This document shows positions 17,555 through 23,124 of a stretch of DNA of 23,550 nucleotides, piece by piece. Position 1 is the first letter of the stretch. Every line of letters begins with the position of its first letter. The stretch is from contig JAHJNP010000279.1 of NCBI GenBank assembly GCA_018820745.1, positions 1 to 23,550 on the forward strand. Reading direction: 5' to 3'. A program made the translations under genes and the position numbers. The DNA is from Gammaproteobacteria bacterium (lineage in GTDB: Bacteria > Pseudomonadota > Gammaproteobacteria > Burkholderiales > Thiobacillaceae). The notes beneath the pieces are model-generated. The model had not been told where the DNA came from. It did not search any database and was given only the letters and a program-made list of their open reading frames with translations.

Positions 17555-19176
17555 CCGTCCTGTGCCTGGCGGCGCCGCTATTGGCCGCCGCGCTACTGTG
17601 GCTGCCGGCCAGCCGCCCGCTCGGCCTGCGGCTGGCGCCGTGGGCAGCGCTGCCGGCGCTGCTCCTGGCGCTGGCCGCGCCAATCCCCTACGAAGTCGAC
17701 CTGCCCTGGTTGCTGCTCGGCACCCGCCTCGGACTCGACGAAACCGGCCGGGTGTTCCTGCTGTTCACTGCGCTGATCTGGCTAGCCGCAGGGTGGTTTG
17801 CCCGTGCCTGGCTGGCGGACGACGCACGCCGTCATATTTTTGCCGGGTTTTTCCTGCTGACCCAGGCCGGCAATCTGGGCGTCTGCCTGGTGCTCGACGC
17901 AGCCGGCTTCTATGGCTTCTTCGCCCTGATGAGCCTGGCCGCCTACGGCCTCATCGTGCATGACCGCAGCCCCCCCGCGCGGCGCGCCGGGCGGGTCTAT
18001 CTGGTGCTGGCGCTGGCAGGCGAAATGCTGATCCTGTCCGGCCTCTTGCTCGTCGCCGACGCCACCCACATGCCCGCCGCCGTGGCCTGCCTGATCCTCG
18101 GCTTCGGCGTGAAAACCGGACTGCCGCTGCTGCACGTTTCGCTGCCGCTGGCGTATGCGGCCACGCCGATCCCTGGCGCCGCGGTGCTGGCCGGGGCGAT
18201 GATCAACGCAGGCCTGCTCGGCTGGCTGCGCTTCCTGCCGCTGGGCGAGGCGGCGCTGCCGGGAGCGGGCAGCGCACTCATGCTGGCGGGCCTGCTGGCG
18301 ATTTTCTACGGTGTGGCGGTGGGGCTCACCCAGCGCCAGCCCGGCGCGCTGCTGGCCTATTCCAGCATCAGCCAGATGGGCTACTTCAGCGTCGCCCTCG
18401 GCGCCGGCCTGCTCGCGCCCGAACTGTGGCCGCTGCTGCTGCCGGTGGTGGTGCTCTACGCCCTGCACCATGCGCTGGCCAAGGGCGCGCTGTTCCTCGG
18501 CGTCGGGGTGGCCGAGCGATGCGGCGCCTCGCGTCGGGTCATGCTCGGCCTCGCCCTGCCCGCGCTCGCGCTGGCCGGCGCGCCCTTGACCAGCGGCATG
18601 CTGGTGAAGGGCGGGCTCAAGGCGGGTCTGGCAGACCTGCCGGCGCCGTGGGCGGAGTTGCTGGCGGCGCTGCTGCCGCTGGCCGCGCTGGGCACGGCGC
18701 TGTTGATGGTGCGCCTGCTTTGGCTGGTGGGGCGGGCGGCCCCGGCGCAGCGGACGTCCGCTTCGGTAGTTGGCCTGCTTGCACCCTGGCTGGTGCTGCT
18801 GCTGGCGCTGGCCGGGCTGGCCTGGATGATGGCGCCGCAATCCCTCATAACAAAAGCACTTAGCCTCGGTGCCCAACTGGACGCGGCCTGGCCCCCGCTG
18901 GCCGCGGCCGCGCTCTGCGCCATTGCGCTGCGCCTGCGCTGGCGCGCGCCCATGCTGCCGCCGGGCGACGTGCTGGTGCCGCTGCTGCGCGGACTGGCTT
19001 ATCTCAGGCGGCGGGCGCCGGCATTGCCGCAATGGCGGATCGCGCTGCCGTCCGGCTCACGCGCCGCGGCCCGCCCGCCCCAACTGGAATCGCAGCTGCG
19101 CGCCTGGGGCACGGCAGGCGCCTTGTGGCTGGCGCTGCTGGCGGCGGTGATCGCGCTGCTGGCGGGCACGGGTTAG
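17542..19176 (+). CDS. Divergent MnhD/NuoL-type antiporter subunit, third copy
   Basis: The 544-residue polytopic protein is recognisably of the same family (LLAYSSISQMGYFSVALGAG; LHHALAKGALF; GAPLTSGMLVKGGLKAG) but has lost key residues. The TM5 glutamate is replaced by Ala128 (FALMSLAAYGLIVH aligns with YELLTLATYPLVVH). The TM8 lysine is replaced by Asn222 (GAMINAG versus AVVKAG). Lys191 in TM7 (GFGVKTGLPLLH) and the TM12 lysine remain. It has a longer, basic, less conserved C-terminus with a last hydrophobic helix. The start ATG 17542 lies within the end of the second copy; the open frame upstream to 17164 is a shadow. It ends the antiporter train and may be a structural or non-pumping subunit. 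Confidence 0.87.
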   Translation: MDTLTVLCLAAPLLAAALLWLPASRPLGLRLAPWAALPALLLALAAPIPYEVDLPWLLLGTRLGLDETGRVFLLFTALIWLAAGWFARAWLADDARRHIFAGFFLLTQAGNLGVCLVLDAAGFYGFFALMSLAAYGLIVHDRSPPARRAGRVYLVLALAGEMLILSGLLLVADATHMPAAVACLILGFGVKTGLPLLHVSLPLAYAATPIPGAAVLAGAMINAGLLGWLRFLPLGEAALPGAGSALMLAGLLAIFYGVAVGLTQRQPGALLAYSSISQMGYFSVALGAGLLAPELWPLLLPVVVLYALHHALAKGALFLGVGVAERCGASRRVMLGLALPALALAGAPLTSGMLVKGGLKAGLADLPAPWAELLAALLPLAALGTALLMVRLLWLVGRAAPAQRTSASVVGLLAPWLVLLLALAGLAWMMAPQSLITKALSLGAQLDAAWPPLAAAALCAIALRLRWRAPMLPPGDVLVPLLRGLAYLRRRAPALPQWRIALPSGSRAAARPPQLESQLRAWGTAGALWLALLAAVIALLAGTG

Positions 19177-19198
19177 CGCGGCTTGCGCGGGCTTGGCG

Positions 19199-19295
19199 GT
19201 CTGCTGCAGCAGTCCAGCGGCGGCGCGCTGCCGTCCTTGTTCCAGATGGCTCTGGACTCTCGACGGTGAACAGAACAGTGAGGGCGTATGAACTT
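19199..19295 (-). pseudogene. Decayed 3'-end fragment of an mscS-like gene
   Basis: Positions 19199-19245 align with 22235-22282, the last codons of the mscS-family gene at 22222-23124. By hand count 40 of 47 bases match with a single one-base gap, and all seven differences are transitions. On the minus strand it encodes traces of the same C-terminus: KDGSAPPL in one frame and YALTVLF (compare YPHLTLY) in another, so it is frameshifted. It starts just after the end of the third MnhD-type gene. The left end at 19295 is approximate. It marks the left flank of the cassette array. Confidence 0.6.
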
Positions 19296-19462
19296 TCGGA
19301 CGAACGGTGAAAATGTTGCATTGCAAGACCTAACCCCGGCTTTCCCCTGGCCTCTGAATACGACTCGGCGACCCGTCTCCTGCTATTGTTCGGTTCGCAC
19401 GAAAACATTTACGCGAATTGGAGCGCTAGCGAGGTGCAGCTTAGAATTCCTCAGGGAATATC
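19296..19462. other. Gene-free stretch left of the cassette array
   Basis: No convincing gene, attI site or left-hand GTTRRRY core was found here. ACCTAAC at 19328-19334 fits the RYYYAAC core by chance but has no partner. A 152-codon open frame starting at 19288 runs through the first attC and has no coding signs. The array's true left boundary is therefore unresolved. Confidence 0.4.
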
Positions 19463-19591
19463 GTGTCCGACCCCATTTTTATTTCCGAGCGGCTACCTCT
19501 GCTGGCGCGCCCTACAACACCCGAACAACAAACGCGGCTCCATACGTTCCAGGAGGAACTTCAACGTGCATTGCTATCGAACGAGGCCTAA
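19463..19591 (+). CDS. Small cassette-encoded protein, 42 aa, unknown
   Basis: A GTG start at 19463 is preceded by AGGG (19453-19456) with 6 bases of spacing. The frame runs 42 codons to TAA at 19589-19591, which lies inside the R'' core GCCTAAC of the first attC site. The product is soluble and helical in its second half (PTTPEQQTRLHTFQEELQ), ending ALLSNEA. Ending exactly in the attC core is typical of cassette genes and supports it as real, although it is short. The frame has a stop just upstream (19442-19444), so it cannot extend further left. It could also be the tail of a truncated older cassette gene. No family recognised. Confidence 0.5.
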   Translation: MSDPIFISERLPLLARPTTPEQQTRLHTFQEELQRALLSNEA

Positions 19592-19651
19592 CACTGCGTT
19601 CGAGGCGACCTGCGCGAAAAGCCGCGCAGGCGCCTCAACTTCACGTTGGGC
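19586..19651 (+). other. attC recombination site 1
   Basis: R'' is GCCTAAC (19586-19592) and R' is GTTGGGC (19645-19651). Between them CGTTCGAGGCGACCTGCGCG pairs with the reverse of CGCGCAGGCGCCTCAACTTC apart from a few unpaired extra bases, as integrase-recognised attC hairpins do. Total 66 bp. The stem is closed by an AAAAGC-type loop also seen in site 2. Confidence 0.9.
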
Positions 19652-19690
19652 GCGGAGACAGTAGCAGTGGAAAAGCCAGAGGAGAATCTT

Positions 19691-20209
19691 GTGAATGCTG
19701 GCATCCTCTTCATGTTCAGCGTATGGCTGCAAAGCCAGATGGTTGATCTGATTGTTTTTGGCAAAAATCCCAAGTTGATTGGTAATTTCGTTGCTAGTCC
19801 AGAGCGTGTTCCAGGGGAGGTTCACCAGCAGCGTGCCAAGTATTGGGAAAAGGATTTCGGTCAAATAAAAACCGAGTTCCTAAAGGTATTTGCCAACACA
19901 CTTAGCAGCAGGGAAGTCGAGGATGTCGAACATGTCTATCACCTCAGGAATATGATCGGCCACGCCCATGTTTCGATTGGTCGGGACTATATGCTTTTTC
20001 GGCCGGGAGGGGAGCATCGTGAAAAGGCAGTCCTAGATGCGCTCAAACCTGAGCCGGTCAAAGACCAGTCAAACCCTTTGATGTTTAAGCTTGAATTTTG
20101 GAGGCCCGATAAATTCAAGGCATTTTCCGATCTCATGGAGAGAATTGATCAACAATGTTTCGGGCGCCTCGCAGCAGATTTAGGGGTGCCGCATGGCCGT
20201 ATTCGGTAG
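19691..20209 (+). CDS. Cassette-encoded HEPN-like protein (RNxxxH motif)
   Basis: This is a 172-residue, mostly helical protein. The start GTG at 19691 is chosen because AGAGGAG (19678-19684) lies 6 bases upstream; GTG at 19667 is an alternative adding 8 residues. No named family was recognised with certainty. The segment VYHLRNMIGHAHVSIG contains R86-N-M-I-G-H91, the R-x4-6-H motif with a polar residue after Arg that defines the HEPN RNase active site, set in a helical context and preceded by another helix, as in that superfamily. The cassette is bounded by attC sites 1 and 2. HEPN proteins are often toxins or phage-defence RNases; no antitoxin partner (for example an MNT nucleotidyltransferase) is visible. 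Codon use is clearly AT-richer than the neighbouring Mrp genes. The HEPN call is motif-based inference. Confidence 0.7.
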   Translation: MNAGILFMFSVWLQSQMVDLIVFGKNPKLIGNFVASPERVPGEVHQQRAKYWEKDFGQIKTEFLKVFANTLSSREVEDVEHVYHLRNMIGHAHVSIGRDYMLFRPGGEHREKAVLDALKPEPVKDQSNPLMFKLEFWRPDKFKAFSDLMERIDQQCFGRLAADLGVPHGRIR

Positions 20210-20215
20210 TACAAC

Positions 20216-20284
20216 GCCCAACCCTTCGGTCAACCGGACCTTGCGCATAAAGCCGCGCAAGTCCGGTTACCTCCAACGTTAGGG
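20216..20284 (+). other. attC recombination site 2
   Basis: R'' is GCCCAAC (20216-20222) and R' is GTTAGGG (20278-20284; the last base departs from the GTTRRRY consensus). CGGTCAACCGGACCTTGCGC pairs with GCGCAAGTCCGGTTACC except for two extra bases on the left arm, the expected extrahelical signature. Total 69 bp. The AGGGG at its 3' end also serves as the likely ribosome-binding site of the next cassette gene. Confidence 0.92.
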
Positions 20285-20293
20285 GTCAGCATC

Positions 20294-20665
20294 TTGGCAC
20301 GTGTTACAACGTTCACACTCCGCTTATTTGGAGTTTCCCTTTTTGCTTTAACGATAGGCTTTGCTGGCCTATGGTCTAGCGTAAATGTCTTCGGTTTTTG
20401 TTCGGTTCGTTATCTTGGCGGCATTGGTCCCGGAGGCGGTTTTTCAATTGGCTACGGTGCGCTTATTCTTTCCTGTGCATTAGTGGCTTGGTGGTTTTTC
20501 TCGTCATTATTTTCTTGGCATCAAAGTGCTGGGAACTTTAGCTTTCGTCGGGTGTTGCTTAGTCGGCTTCATCTAGCTGGCCTTTGTCTTTGGCTAATCG
20601 TTTTGTCTTGGGGAGCCCTCTCGTTTTTTGGGTGCAGCCAAGGGTTCGGGTTCGGCAGTTCATGA
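20294..20665 (+). CDS. Cassette-encoded small membrane protein, unknown
   Basis: The 123-residue protein has three likely transmembrane helices: about residues 8-32 (LRLFGVSLFALTIGFAGLW), 48-72 (SIGYGALILSCALVAWWFF) and 90-113 (LHLAGLCLWLIVLSWGALSF). The start TTG 20294 is supported by AGGGG (20281-20285) 8 bases upstream, which is part of the attC site 2 core. No family recognised. The last 38 bp overlap, in another frame, the following STN-like ORF, so the two may be translationally coupled or the remains of one frameshifted gene. Base composition is AT-rich relative to the chromosome. Confidence 0.6.
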   Translation: MARVTTFTLRLFGVSLFALTIGFAGLWSSVNVFGFCSVRYLGGIGPGGGFSIGYGALILSCALVAWWFFSSLFSWHQSAGNFSFRRVLLSRLHLAGLCLWLIVLSWGALSFFGCSQGFGFGSS

Positions 20666-20894
20666 GCTTTCTGTGTTGCTATCGATTGACTTCTACAGCA
20701 TCCCACTGGCCAACACGCTGCAAGTTATCGCAGATGCCTCTGGAAACAAACTTTCGTTCTCTCCTCGAATCGATGTCTCCGGTGCCTTCCGCTACGTATG
20801 CGTTCCGTGGGACACCATACTCAGTGACATCGCAGCAAAGTACAACCTCTATACCAGAGTTGAGGCCGGAACCATCTATGTCCGCCCAAAGTAG
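20628..20894 (+). CDS. Cassette-encoded stand-alone STN-like (secretin/TonB short N-terminal) domain
   Basis: From about residue 15 the 88-residue ORF reads like the STN/secretin N0 fold found in PilQ and TonB-dependent receptors. The segments are LLSIDFYSIPLANTLQVIAD, then ASGNKLSFSPRIDVSGAF, then VPWDTILSDIAAKYNLYTRV and a final strand GTIYVRPK. The PLxxxLxxIAxxSG and VPWDxxLxxI patterns are the telling ones. The start is uncertain: TTG 20628 has GGGAG at 20610-20614 at a long spacing; GTG 20673 is possible. No signal peptide is apparent in this frame, whereas STN domains are normally periplasmic, so it may depend on the overlapping membrane ORF. It is followed by attC site 3. Confidence 0.6.
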   Translation: MGAAKGSGSAVHELSVLLSIDFYSIPLANTLQVIADASGNKLSFSPRIDVSGAFRYVCVPWDTILSDIAAKYNLYTRVEAGTIYVRPK

Positions 20895-20912
20895 CAAACT
20901 GAACCCAATAGT

Positions 20913-20972
20913 GCCTAACCAATCATTCAACCGGGACGCGCTAAAGCGCGCCCCTTAATTCAACCGTTAGGC
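20913..20972 (+). other. attC recombination site 3
   Basis: R'' is GCCTAAC (20913-20919) and R' is GTTAGGC (20966-20972), both perfect to consensus. The inner stem GGGACGCGC/GCGCGCCCC closes around a TAAA loop with one extra A. The outer arms pair less well on the top strand but gain G-T pairs on the bottom strand, which is the strand used in cassette recombination. Total 60 bp. Confidence 0.9.
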
Positions 20973-20984
20973 GTCACAAGCACT

Positions 20985-21653
20985 ATGTCTGCCGACTCCC
21001 ATAGCAAGGTTCCTCCTCAGTTCCGTGAGATCTACGACGAACTGCGGTCAGAAATCACTTGGATGCACGGCCGGTGGCTAACCTACCGAGAGCTCTTTAC
21101 CGACAGCTCGAAGCGGATAGAACTGTTGAACGAAGCAGCGGGAACCTTCTTCTACATCATTCAGGACGTCTTTCTGGACGACATTCAAATCACTCTCAGC
21201 AAACTCACCGACCCGGCTCAAACCGGCAAGCATCACAACCTTTCTATCGAGCAACTGCAATCGCAGCTAAAAGGGCATGGCGATCCTGGCTTGGCAGCAC
21301 AGTGCCGTGCGACGCTCGACGTGCTTCATGCTCAGTGCGCCGTGTTTCGCATGCGGCGCCACAAGGAACTCGCGCATCTTGACCTATCAACCTCATTGAA
21401 GCTTTCATCCGAGCCTCTTCCTGGCGTATCTCGGCAGATGATTGAAGACGCGCTTCACTCCGTCCGAACTTACATGAATGCAATCGAGGGCCACTATAAC
21501 GACAGCGAGTGGGGGTACGAAGACTTCATTCTGCATGACGGGGCAGATGCACTACTTGCTACCCTGCGGGCTGGTTTGCGCTACGAAGAGCTTGTGCAAG
21601 GGCGTGCGCTTCCTTTCGATGACTGGCGGAAAGGGAAGTGGAGTGACGCCTAG
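20985..21653 (+). CDS. Cassette-encoded AbiU2-like HEPN protein
   Basis: The 222-residue helical protein resembles the AbiU2 branch of the HEPN superfamily, recognised from IELLNEAAGTFFYIIQDVFL, DIQITLSKLTDPAQTGK and the catalytic-type segment RMRRHKELAHLDL. In the last, Arg125-His126 to His131 forms the R-x5-H RNase motif. AbiU2 proteins are linked to abortive infection of phages; the exact target is not known to me. The start ATG 20985 lies 12 bp after the R' core of attC site 3. The TAG stop (21651-21653) lies inside the degenerate core GCCTAGC, as expected for a cassette gene. Its last ~95 bp are overlapped antisense by the next minus-strand ORF. No partner antitoxin is visible. Confidence 0.82.
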   Translation: MSADSHSKVPPQFREIYDELRSEITWMHGRWLTYRELFTDSSKRIELLNEAAGTFFYIIQDVFLDDIQITLSKLTDPAQTGKHHNLSIEQLQSQLKGHGDPGLAAQCRATLDVLHAQCAVFRMRRHKELAHLDLSTSLKLSSEPLPGVSRQMIEDALHSVRTYMNAIEGHYNDSEWGYEDFILHDGADALLATLRAGLRYEELVQGRALPFDDWRKGKWSDA

Positions 21654-22074
21654 CAGGGGGCGGGGCGTCATGCTTCGCACCGTCAGTTGACATCTGGATC
21701 ATCGCCTGCGCGTGCGCGACAAATCGCGTCAATGTTGCGCACTTTCCGCTACAGGCACGGCTTCGATCCTCGATCAGCAGGGATACCGTCACCGCGAGCG
21801 CATCGCATGCCTTCATCAGGCGCTCAAAACCCGCCGCACCGGCGCACTCGCGCAATCGAATCAACGCCAGGGCATAGGCCGTAATCCTGCCTTGACTCAA
21901 GGCTTCCGGATTGGCAAAGCATTGTTGTGAAACGATGTTTCCCATGTCGTTCAGCGCATCCACCGCCGCAGCAACCAGGTCCGCAGACGCGCCCGGACCC
22001 GACTCCCATCCCAGGCAGACCGCTGTCGACACACCGATCCGATGCTTCGAGTTCAGAATTTGCATATTGCGCAT
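21559..22074 (-). CDS. Conserved-looking hypothetical protein, 3' end running into the cassette array
   Basis: The 171-residue protein starts at ATG 22074 with AGGGA about 6-10 bases upstream on the minus strand. Residues 1-125 look like a genuine helical domain (ALIRLRECAGAAGFERLMKA, then CDALAVTVSLLIEDRSRA). I do not recognise the family. After about residue 130 the composition changes (HDAPPPARRHSTSLSASHRK) and the frame reads antisense through the end of the AbiU2-like cassette gene, stopping at 21559-21561. The original C-terminus was therefore probably replaced when the array was inserted here. Three cysteines are present in the second half of the domain (CAG, ACD, GKCATL). It lies 147 bp downstream of, and on the same strand as, the mscS-family gene. 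Confidence 0.6.
   Translation of the reverse strand: MRNMQILNSKHRIGVSTAVCLGWESGPGASADLVAAAVDALNDMGNIVSQQCFANPEALSQGRITAYALALIRLRECAGAAGFERLMKACDALAVTVSLLIEDRSRACSGKCATLTRFVAHAQAMIQMSTDGAKHDAPPPARRHSTSLSASHRKEAHALAQALRSANQPAG
21648..21691 (+). other. Degenerate or truncated terminal attC
   Basis: GCCTAGC (21648-21654) differs by one base from an R'' core and holds the stop codon of the AbiU2-like gene, just as GCCTAAC does for the first cassette. A matching R' is not clear; GTTGACA (21687-21693) begins within a plausible distance but departs from GTTRRRY. A 7-bp inverted repeat TGACGCC (21644-21650)/GGCGTCA (21664-21670) spans it. This probably marks the right end of the array. Confidence 0.4.
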
Positions 22075-22221
22075 GGCTAATCCCTGATTATTGAGATGGC
22101 CAGCGGTTGTAGTTGTGGGCTGGCTGTCCTTGTTACGACAAGCCGCCTCCGAACTTTAACTTTTATACCGGCGTTGATGGTTCGTTTGTACCACCATCGC
22201 CTTAGGTCGACCTGAAGTTGC

Positions 22222-23124
22222 TCAGTCCGTCGCAGCCTGTTGCAGCAGCCGCAGCGGCGGCGCGCTGCCATCCTTGTCCTGGCCGGCGTACAGGGTGAGG
22301 TGTGGATAGGGGATCTCGATGCCGGCGGCGTCGAAGGCCTTCTTCAGGCGGTACAGGAACGCGCGGCGGACCGTCCACTGTTCGAGCGGCATGACCTTGA
22401 AGCGGCAGCGGATGACGACTGCCGAATCCGCCCAGTTGTCTACCCCGGCGATTTCGAGGTCCTCCACGATTTTCTCGCCCAGTTCGGGGTCGCTGCGCAT
22501 GCCGGCGGCCACCTCGCGCATCACGGCATAGACCTCGTCGACGTCCTCGCGGTAGGCCACGCCGATGTCGAGCAGCGCGAAGGCAAAGCCGCGGCTGCGG
22601 TTGGTGACGCTGTCGATGGTGCCGTTGGGAATGTAATGCACGCTGCCTTCGTAGTCGCGCAGGCGGATGTAGCGCAGCGTCATCTCCTCGACCAGCCCGC
22701 CCTTGCCGGCGACCTCCACCACGTCGCCCTGGCGCACCTGGTTTTCCAGCAACAGGAAGAAGCCGTTGAAGTAGTCCTTGACCAGGCTTTGCGCGCCGAA
22801 GCCGATGGCGATGCCGAGCACACCGGCGGTGGCCAGGATCGGCGCGATGGAAATGCCGACCGCGGAGAGCACCAGCATGCCGCCGACCAGCGTGATGACC
22901 ACGGCGGCGACATAGCGGAATACGCGTTCCAGCGTATCCAGGCGCTTGATCCGTTCGCGATCACCGAGGTCCTGCTGCATGTGCGTCCGCAGCCGCGCCA
23001 GTCCCTTGCGCGACAGCCTGAGCAGGAGCCAGGTCAGCGCCAGAATGATCACGACATGAAGCGCGCTTTCCAGCAGCCACAGCCAGTCGCCCAGGGCCTG
23101 TTGCAAGGTGGCAAGTATTTCCAT
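22222..23124 (-). CDS. MscS-family small-conductance mechanosensitive channel
   Basis: The 300-residue protein has the MscS layout. Three transmembrane helices are seen: about residues 18-36, 70-88 and the pore helix 95-125 (TAGVLGIAIGFGAQSLVKDY). The conserved beta domain follows (QGDVVEVAGKGGLVEEMTLR, then YIPNGTID), then the mixed alpha/beta C-terminal domain with AGIEIPYPHLTLY. The length matches E. coli MscS (286 aa). The start ATG 23124 has AAAGGAG at 23132-23138, a strong site. It would release solutes on hypo-osmotic shock, which fits the ion-homeostasis theme of the region. Its 3' end has a decayed second copy at 19199-19245 on the far side of the cassette array. Confidence 0.95.
   Translation of the reverse strand: MEILATLQQALGDWLWLLESALHVVIILALTWLLLRLSRKGLARLRTHMQQDLGDRERIKRLDTLERVFRYVAAVVITLVGGMLVLSAVGISIAPILATAGVLGIAIGFGAQSLVKDYFNGFFLLLENQVRQGDVVEVAGKGGLVEEMTLRYIRLRDYEGSVHYIPNGTIDSVTNRSRGFAFALLDIGVAYREDVDEVYAVMREVAAGMRSDPELGEKIVEDLEIAGVDNWADSAVVIRCRFKVMPLEQWTVRRAFLYRLKKAFDAAGIEIPYPHLTLYAGQDKDGSAPPLRLLQQAATD

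Follow-up and report, generated by a model that had tools for sequence, protein, structure and literature searches.

A probable displaced fragment of a Thiobacillus integron cassette array between an Mrp operon and mscS

How do integron recombination sites come to lie on a contig that carries no integron integrase? This question is raised by the interval between an Mrp operon and an mscS-family gene in contig JAHJNP010000279.1 (C253 below) of assembly GCA_018820745.1, from a gammaproteobacterium of the family Thiobacillaceae. The window that we analysed is this entire contig, 23550 bases of a 2.5 Mb draft genome that lies in 431 contigs and is 75% complete. A preliminary description, made from the letters alone, had called the interval an integrase-free cassette array (CALIN), and this label holds: the contig carries three good attC sites and gave no match to an integrase. 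We consider it probable that positions 19474-21655 are a displaced and decaying part of a cassette array from a Thiobacillus chromosomal integron, with four tandem cassettes. The first of them is headless and the last appears to be without its recombination site, so the array is a fragment.

Recombination sites, cassettes and cargo

Rfam at its gathering thresholds gave no match in the window, and therefore we built our own attC model from congener sites. The IntI profile TIGR02249 was used to pick integron loci of congeners, and these were scanned for attC-like hairpins. From 33 candidates, 8 were left out (alternative ends of one site, over-long or in an odd context), giving an alignment of 25 (A1), and 3 more were then removed for length, which left 22 sites (A2) in the covariance model, R1. 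The independence of the test consists in the absence of the window from these training sites. The R1 consensus has 20 pairs, 11 of them changed on both sides in the 22 training sites, counts that lean towards structure because the training scan itself required boxes and a hairpin. When run on the 23.5-kb window, R1 found exactly three attC sites, all in one orientation, and no further match up to E 10. They are the three sites of the preliminary description, with the same starts, lengths and orientation (E 2e-12 to 3e-14):

19586..19651, plus strand: attC1, 66 nucleotides (nt); R1 62.6 bits, E 3.5e-14; fold z-score -3.6
20216..20284, plus strand: attC2, 69 nt; R1 55.7 bits, E 2.1e-12; fold z-score -3.5
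20913..20972, plus strand: attC3, 60 nt; R1 62.9 bits, E 2.9e-14; fold z-score -2.9

The fold z-scores compare the single-strand folding of the minus strand with that of shuffles; for attC3, 2 of 200 shuffles folded equally well. Both core boxes (RYYYAAC ... GTTRRRY) are fitted by attC1 and attC3, and attC2 departs from GTTRRRY by one base at its end (GTTAGGG). A strict DNA pattern for attC was dropped; it found only site 3 in the whole genome, and its reversed control also gave one match.

Over 60-69 nt, attC3 shares 94-95% identity with attC sites in the intI-bearing array of a congener (G023). As for attC2, it shares 84% identity over 63 nt with the site that directly follows blaOXA-9 in the Klebsiella plasmid record NC_003486, the one listed record in which the gene next to the similar site was looked up. 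Some part of the array is matched by 571 plasmid records, and among the 10 listed, 9 match attC2 and 1 matches attC3. The likeness to the blaOXA-9 site is a possible hint at the source of the recombination site of cassette 2.

The sites divide the array into the following cassettes, the last of which ends in what appears to be the remainder of a fourth site:

19474..19651, plus strand: cassette 1, a headless remnant, in which an open-frame tail runs into attC1; the homology to a relative's locus (L048) stops at 19473
19645..20284, plus strand: cassette 2, with an open reading frame (ORF) at about 19667-20209 of about 180 residues, its start chosen by homologues, for a probable HEPN (Swt1-like) protein
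20278..20972, plus strand: cassette 3, with ORFs at 20294-20665 and 20628-20894
20966..21655, plus strand: cassette 4, with the ORF 20985-21653 for an AbiU2 family HEPN protein of 222 residues
21648..21654, plus strand: R'' box of attC4, the sole remainder of that site; GACGCCTAGC at 21645-21654 versus the expected GACGCCTAAC

Cassettes move as circles, and in the integron mechanism a cassette that has moved in this way takes its first bases from the R' box with which its own R'' pairs. As a control for this property we used two congener arrays (18 of 19 attC matches in L105 and 9 of 9 in L120), in which 20 of 25 cassettes had a start box in perfect agreement with their own R'', and R'' and R' of the same site matched perfectly in 5 of 27. 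Random pairs of start box and R'' were perfect in 20% of cases, and agreed on average in 5.4 of 7 positions. The start box of cassette 2 matches its own R'' in 7 of 7 positions, compared with 5 of 7 within its site; that of cassette 4 matches in 6 of 7. Cassette 4 begins with GTTAGGCGTC at 20966, and the ten-base R'' that this start predicts is present in the form listed above, overlapping the stop codon of the cassette. A fourth attC would therefore once have existed, with only its R'' box left. Thus, the three sites that had been described stand, and to them is added a fourth cassette, 20966-21655, whose attC is cut to this box.

The protein encoded in cassette 4 matches PF18734 (AbiU2) at 81.2 bits, where the cut-off is 26.8. 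It has 123 homologues at E 1e-3, and in an alignment (A5) that takes in 21 of 120 listed homologues, R125 and H131 are invariant in all 22 sequences. Within the genus it has two distant relatives of 28 and 31% identity (2 of 55 other genomes). In 399 genomes drawn from the order, two relatives besides the source genome were found at E 1e-15, in two other genera, and both of them adjoin attC sites, on both sides in one case (L225) and on one side in the other (L226). A PDB profile search with the family gave no match up to E 1, and PADLOC gave none at E 0.1 for this protein and none for five proteins of the region.

Cassette 2 probably encodes a second HEPN protein, because R97, N98 and H102 are invariant in the 29 aligned sequences of its family (R97 and H102 as the putative ends of an Rx4-6H motif) and 7 of these 29 match PF18731 (HEPN_Swt1), the best at E 9.2e-6; the window protein itself gives no match. 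The alignment (A4) takes in 28 of the 48 homologues of the protein, two of which are named Xanthomonas. A PDB profile search with this family gave weak matches to patatin-type chains (E 0.003-0.006). No counterpart of the protein was found in the 55 other genomes of the genus at E 1e-5, or at E 1e-8 in the 399 order genomes besides the source genome. The first ORF of cassette 3 (20294-20665) encodes 123 residues, hydrophobic by eye and with no Pfam match, and the second (20628-20894) up to 88 residues that are weakly STN- or PilQ-N-like, below the cut-offs. As candidate RNase-type effectors of abortive infection or dormancy we name the AbiU2 protein and the probable HEPN protein.

Borders of the array and the corresponding loci of relatives

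The borders of the array are placed by relatives to within about 12 nt. On the right, a congener (G022, locus L051) is 92.8% identical in DNA from exactly 21656 to 22196 and has no attC in the corresponding interval, so the border lies at 21655/21656. On the left, the border lies at about 19474-19485, behind a broken ParE-like gene. The two flanking features are:

19347..19473, plus strand: left flank, a 3' fragment of a ParE-like toxin gene with 44 nt downstream of it; 89.8% identical to L048 7192-7066 (G002)
21559..22074, minus strand: resident gene with its tail replaced, in which about 20 native C-terminal residues have given way to about 31 residues read from cassette 4

In G022 the resident gene has 159 codons, and its closest homologues, which stop near residue 159, have a different tail in common. 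The left flank is also 86.9% identical over 84 nt to L049 5364-5447 (G006), and 19347-19471 is matched at 85% by Hydrogenophilales bacterium 16-64-40 (L146); the intact gene of L048 is a PF15781 ParE-like toxin (E 5.6e-36). Neither a GTTRRRY cassette start nor an attI-like core was found left of attC1, where the start box was sought from 19241 to the R' box of attC1. Because the homology of relatives stops and starts again at these points and no start box precedes attC1, the array starts at 19474 (19485 at the latest), ends at 21655 and is truncated on both sides. It thus lies within the span of 19463..21691 first proposed for it, of which 19463-19473 belongs to the left flank and the part beyond 21655 lies outside the array.

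A dispersed motif, ATCGTGTCCGACCCC, lies at this left border (about 19458-19484). It occurs at six genomic places with at most one mismatch, the window included, and its reversed control at none; three of the five other places continue similarly. We take this motif to be possibly tied to IS200-like/RAYT transposases. A Y1_Tnp transposase sits in the corresponding interval of G006.

It had been proposed that the Mrp and mscS neighbours would nearly meet without the array. This did not stand, as other genes occupy the interval in both relatives: a 397-residue gene, an MgtC gene and the resident gene in G022, and other genes again in G006. The comparison of relatives for an empty site, which the preliminary description had proposed, thus led to an array cut at both ends in an interval that was already variable. 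R1 gave no attC match up to E 1 at any of 20 congener mscS loci. Among 26 loci of named mscS relatives (L145-L170, their genomes partly overlapping), one alone (L151) has a weaker site, of 33.8 bits, and it lies on the other side of mscS. In G002 (L048 1895-2182) the Mrp operon is not beside mscS, and the gene upstream seems to be fused to the end of the third MnhD-type gene, which looks as if the Mrp operon had been deleted.

The neighbouring genes and a repeat outside the array are as follows:

19196..19240, minus strand: duplicated 3' tail of mscS, with its counterpart at 22232-22277; 26 nt at 19215-19240 are 96% identical to 22252-22277
22222..23124, minus strand: mscS-family gene, the right neighbour; PF00924, PF21082 and PF21088

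On the other side the final Mrp gene ends at 19176, and short plus-strand ORFs lie in the interval between Mrp and mscS. The copy of the mscS tail matches the mscS ends of relatives over about 40-46 nt, and it is also present left of the interval in G006. We considered whether the array had made the repeat as a target duplication, and rejected this because the fetched mscS locus of G006 has the repeat without any attC match. The duplicated tail that flanks the variable interval is an older insertion or duplication, separate from the array.

The G+C content of the array is about 0.49-0.53, compared with about 0.64-0.75 on the Mrp side. The array had been described as AT-rich between GC-rich genes, and this is borne out on the Mrp side; on the mscS side (about 0.57-0.67) the contrast is smaller. 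Scans of the region gave 1 promoter-like site, where shuffling predicts 1.6, and 7 terminator-like sites, where it predicts 3.1; we place no weight on either. The assignment to Thiobacillus is based on the titles of named relatives of the mscS protein at 97-99% identity, which are mostly of this genus (Thiobacillus sp. Sulfur_bin.2, 99%; Hydrogenophilales bacterium 16-64-40, 98%; T. denitrificans RG, 97%).

Integrases in the genome and the origin of the array

No TIGR02249 integron integrase was found on C253 at E 1e-3, a contig that extends 19.5 kb upstream of the array and 2.6 kb downstream to its end; a complete integron, with intI and attI beside the array, is thus not present here. The statement that neither intI nor attI is visible therefore holds for the contig. 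It does not hold for the genome, in which TIGR02249 has seven matches. On score and length alone, we assigned the matches on C397, C299 and C417 to other tyrosine recombinases. On C209 (L014, 1985-2922 and 564-1160) an intI gene that is frameshifted into two frames adjoins two attC-bearing cassettes, and on C135 (L015, 235-1408) the remnant of an intI C-terminus (43 positions, 272-314 of the model) lies beside a DUF2971 cassette with attC. An intact intI in the missing quarter of the genome is possible. R1 has 14 matches in the source genome up to E 1, the weakest two at E of about 0.1 (C253 three, C321 three, C191 four, C209 two, C135 one and C19 one).

Some of these contigs carry further features. 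On C209, one cassette has a PEP-CTERM motif, and two long minus-strand genes lie beside, topoisomerase IV- or gyrase-subunit-like by eye. The array on C191 (L137, 3744-7113) has four attC matches, one of them weak, towards the contig end, and one of its cassettes encodes a TIR_2/SEFIR protein. On C321 (L136, 1513-2418), a CAP12/Pycsar-type TIR protein is encoded about 1.4 kb from an array of three attC sites.

In the genus, IntI is matched by TIGR02249 at E 1e-30 in 40 of 56 genomes, the broken copy of the source genome included, 38 of them above the curated cut-off, and attC is found at E 1e-4 in at least 52 of 56, the source genome included. We selected 20 attC regions among the matches listed, on contigs without an IntI match at E 1e-30, except for one with a match 63 kb away; IntI copies weaker than E 1e-30 would escape this selection. 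Two or more sites up to E 0.01 are present in 16 of the 20 regions, and 9 of 20 reach the contig end. The clearest case is G062, a genome of 9 contigs rated 100% complete, with one IntI match on C2 and seven attC sites on C8. Therefore, integrase-free cassette arrays look common in Thiobacillus.

How, then, did this array lose its integrase? If a complete integron had once been present here and had lost intI and attI by deletion, the array would simply have decayed in place, and the broken and remnant intI genes on C209 and C135, the latter beside a cassette, indicate that such decay has occurred elsewhere in this genome. We regard this as unlikely here, as the contig has no intI, nothing like a start box or attI core precedes attC1, the left flank is a toxin-gene fragment common to relatives that have no attC there, and the congener mscS loci gave no attC in 20 of 20, with none of the IntI matches listed falling in those stretches. 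Cassettes might instead have been inserted by an integrase at a non-classical genomic site (attG) and eroded at their ends afterwards. Insertion of this kind was reportedly described by Loot et al. in 2024. Congeners carry full-length IntI, and attG insertion is cited as published in the available text of PMC12444791 and PMC12901181. A clean event predicts a G/TTRRRY start box on the left and a complete terminal attC on the right, and neither is present, which makes this explanation quite improbable.

It could also be asked whether the array belongs to this locus at all. The draft is in many contigs, the left border carries the short dispersed motif, and assembly is made harder by attC sites that closely resemble one another (PMC9024848, in the part available), so that an array from elsewhere in the sample could have been joined to the Mrp contig at a repeat. 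We think such a chimera very unlikely, because the attC sites are of the type found in this genus, relatives have both flanks in their mscS-Mrp neighbourhood, and the stretches shared at the borders are short, about 15 nt on the left and about 13 nt on the right. That the interval holds ordinary vertically inherited genes with chance palindromes, which the preliminary description had named as an outcome that would refute it, has hardly any probability left: we found no point in its support, the three sites are in register and at E 2e-12 or lower, the congener mscS loci have no attC, and the cargo is not found in congeners save for the two distant AbiU2 relatives.

Several observations weigh against the displacement of a cassette array as we propose it. 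The cassette-unit test reads as clear for cassette 2 only and as weak for cassettes 3 and 4, because random pairs average 5.4 matches; moreover, the start box of cassette 3 matches its own R'' in 6 of 7 positions, below the 7 of 7 within its own attC. The AbiU2 relatives of congeners (L099 and L100; 2 of the 4 relatives outside the source genome) are without attC within 1.5 kb on each side. Of the 20 congener loci fetched, only 4 have Mrp genes next to mscS, which weakens the locus comparison, and the genome is an incomplete draft. In no relative examined do the two flanks adjoin with the array absent, and we found no clean empty site; because of this, that the piece was displaced rather than left in place is something we infer.

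For a displaced piece, the following course of events would fit. The cassettes would have been collected by IntI at an attI elsewhere, and illegitimate or repeat-mediated recombination, as opposed to a clean insertion by integrase, would then have carried a piece of their array into the interval, which was already variable. This move would have cut one cassette at each end and the tail of the resident gene. Without an integron promoter, the genes may depend on transcription from the upstream Mrp operon or on their own promoters, or be silent. IntI acting in trans could excise cassettes 2 and 3, each flanked by two attC sites, and would not excise 1 or 4. A wider suggestion, which we make tentatively and think unlikely as it stands, is that Thiobacillus keeps several integrase-free arrays, dispersed along the chromosome, as a standing, trans-mobilisable store, of which this array, with its HEPN-type conflict genes, would be one escapee. 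On the same doubtful suggestion, the store would have arisen as cassettes escaped repeatedly from the main integron, not by the decay of many integrons.

Comparison with known systems

In the literature searched, which excluded most subscription papers, we found no published account of this array, and in the available parts of publications that combine Thiobacillus, integron and attC, Thiobacillus figures as an outgroup for XerC/XerD or as an entry among abbreviations. The array is a well-bounded example of integron cassettes that have outlived their integrase, with a resident gene cut and HEPN-type cargo, and the attC survey suggests Thiobacillus as a tractable environmental group for the study of how cassettes leave integrons and settle elsewhere.

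Integrase-free arrays are known from Xanthomonas, in which, according to the available text of PMC12444791, they are present in about half of the genomes at positions relatively conserved across species; in contrast, the array described here is in one genome and is cut at both ends. HEPN proteins have been described as integron cassettes and proposed to be stress or dormancy RNases, with AbiU2 as a HEPN family (PMC3710099, in the part available, where PDB 3jrt is named). The array resembles these cassette proteins in having HEPN as cargo, here of the AbiU2 family and of a type nearer to Swt1. With the chromosomal integrons of congeners (G023, L105) it shares the attC type and cassettes in one orientation. 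However, L105 has a full-length intI nearby and 19 attC sites at E 0.001 in 11 kb, whereas the window has no integrase, no attI and three sites. The array thus belongs to an already known kind, the orphan cassette array, to which the present analysis adds its borders, a fourth cassette, its broken ends and its context in the genus.

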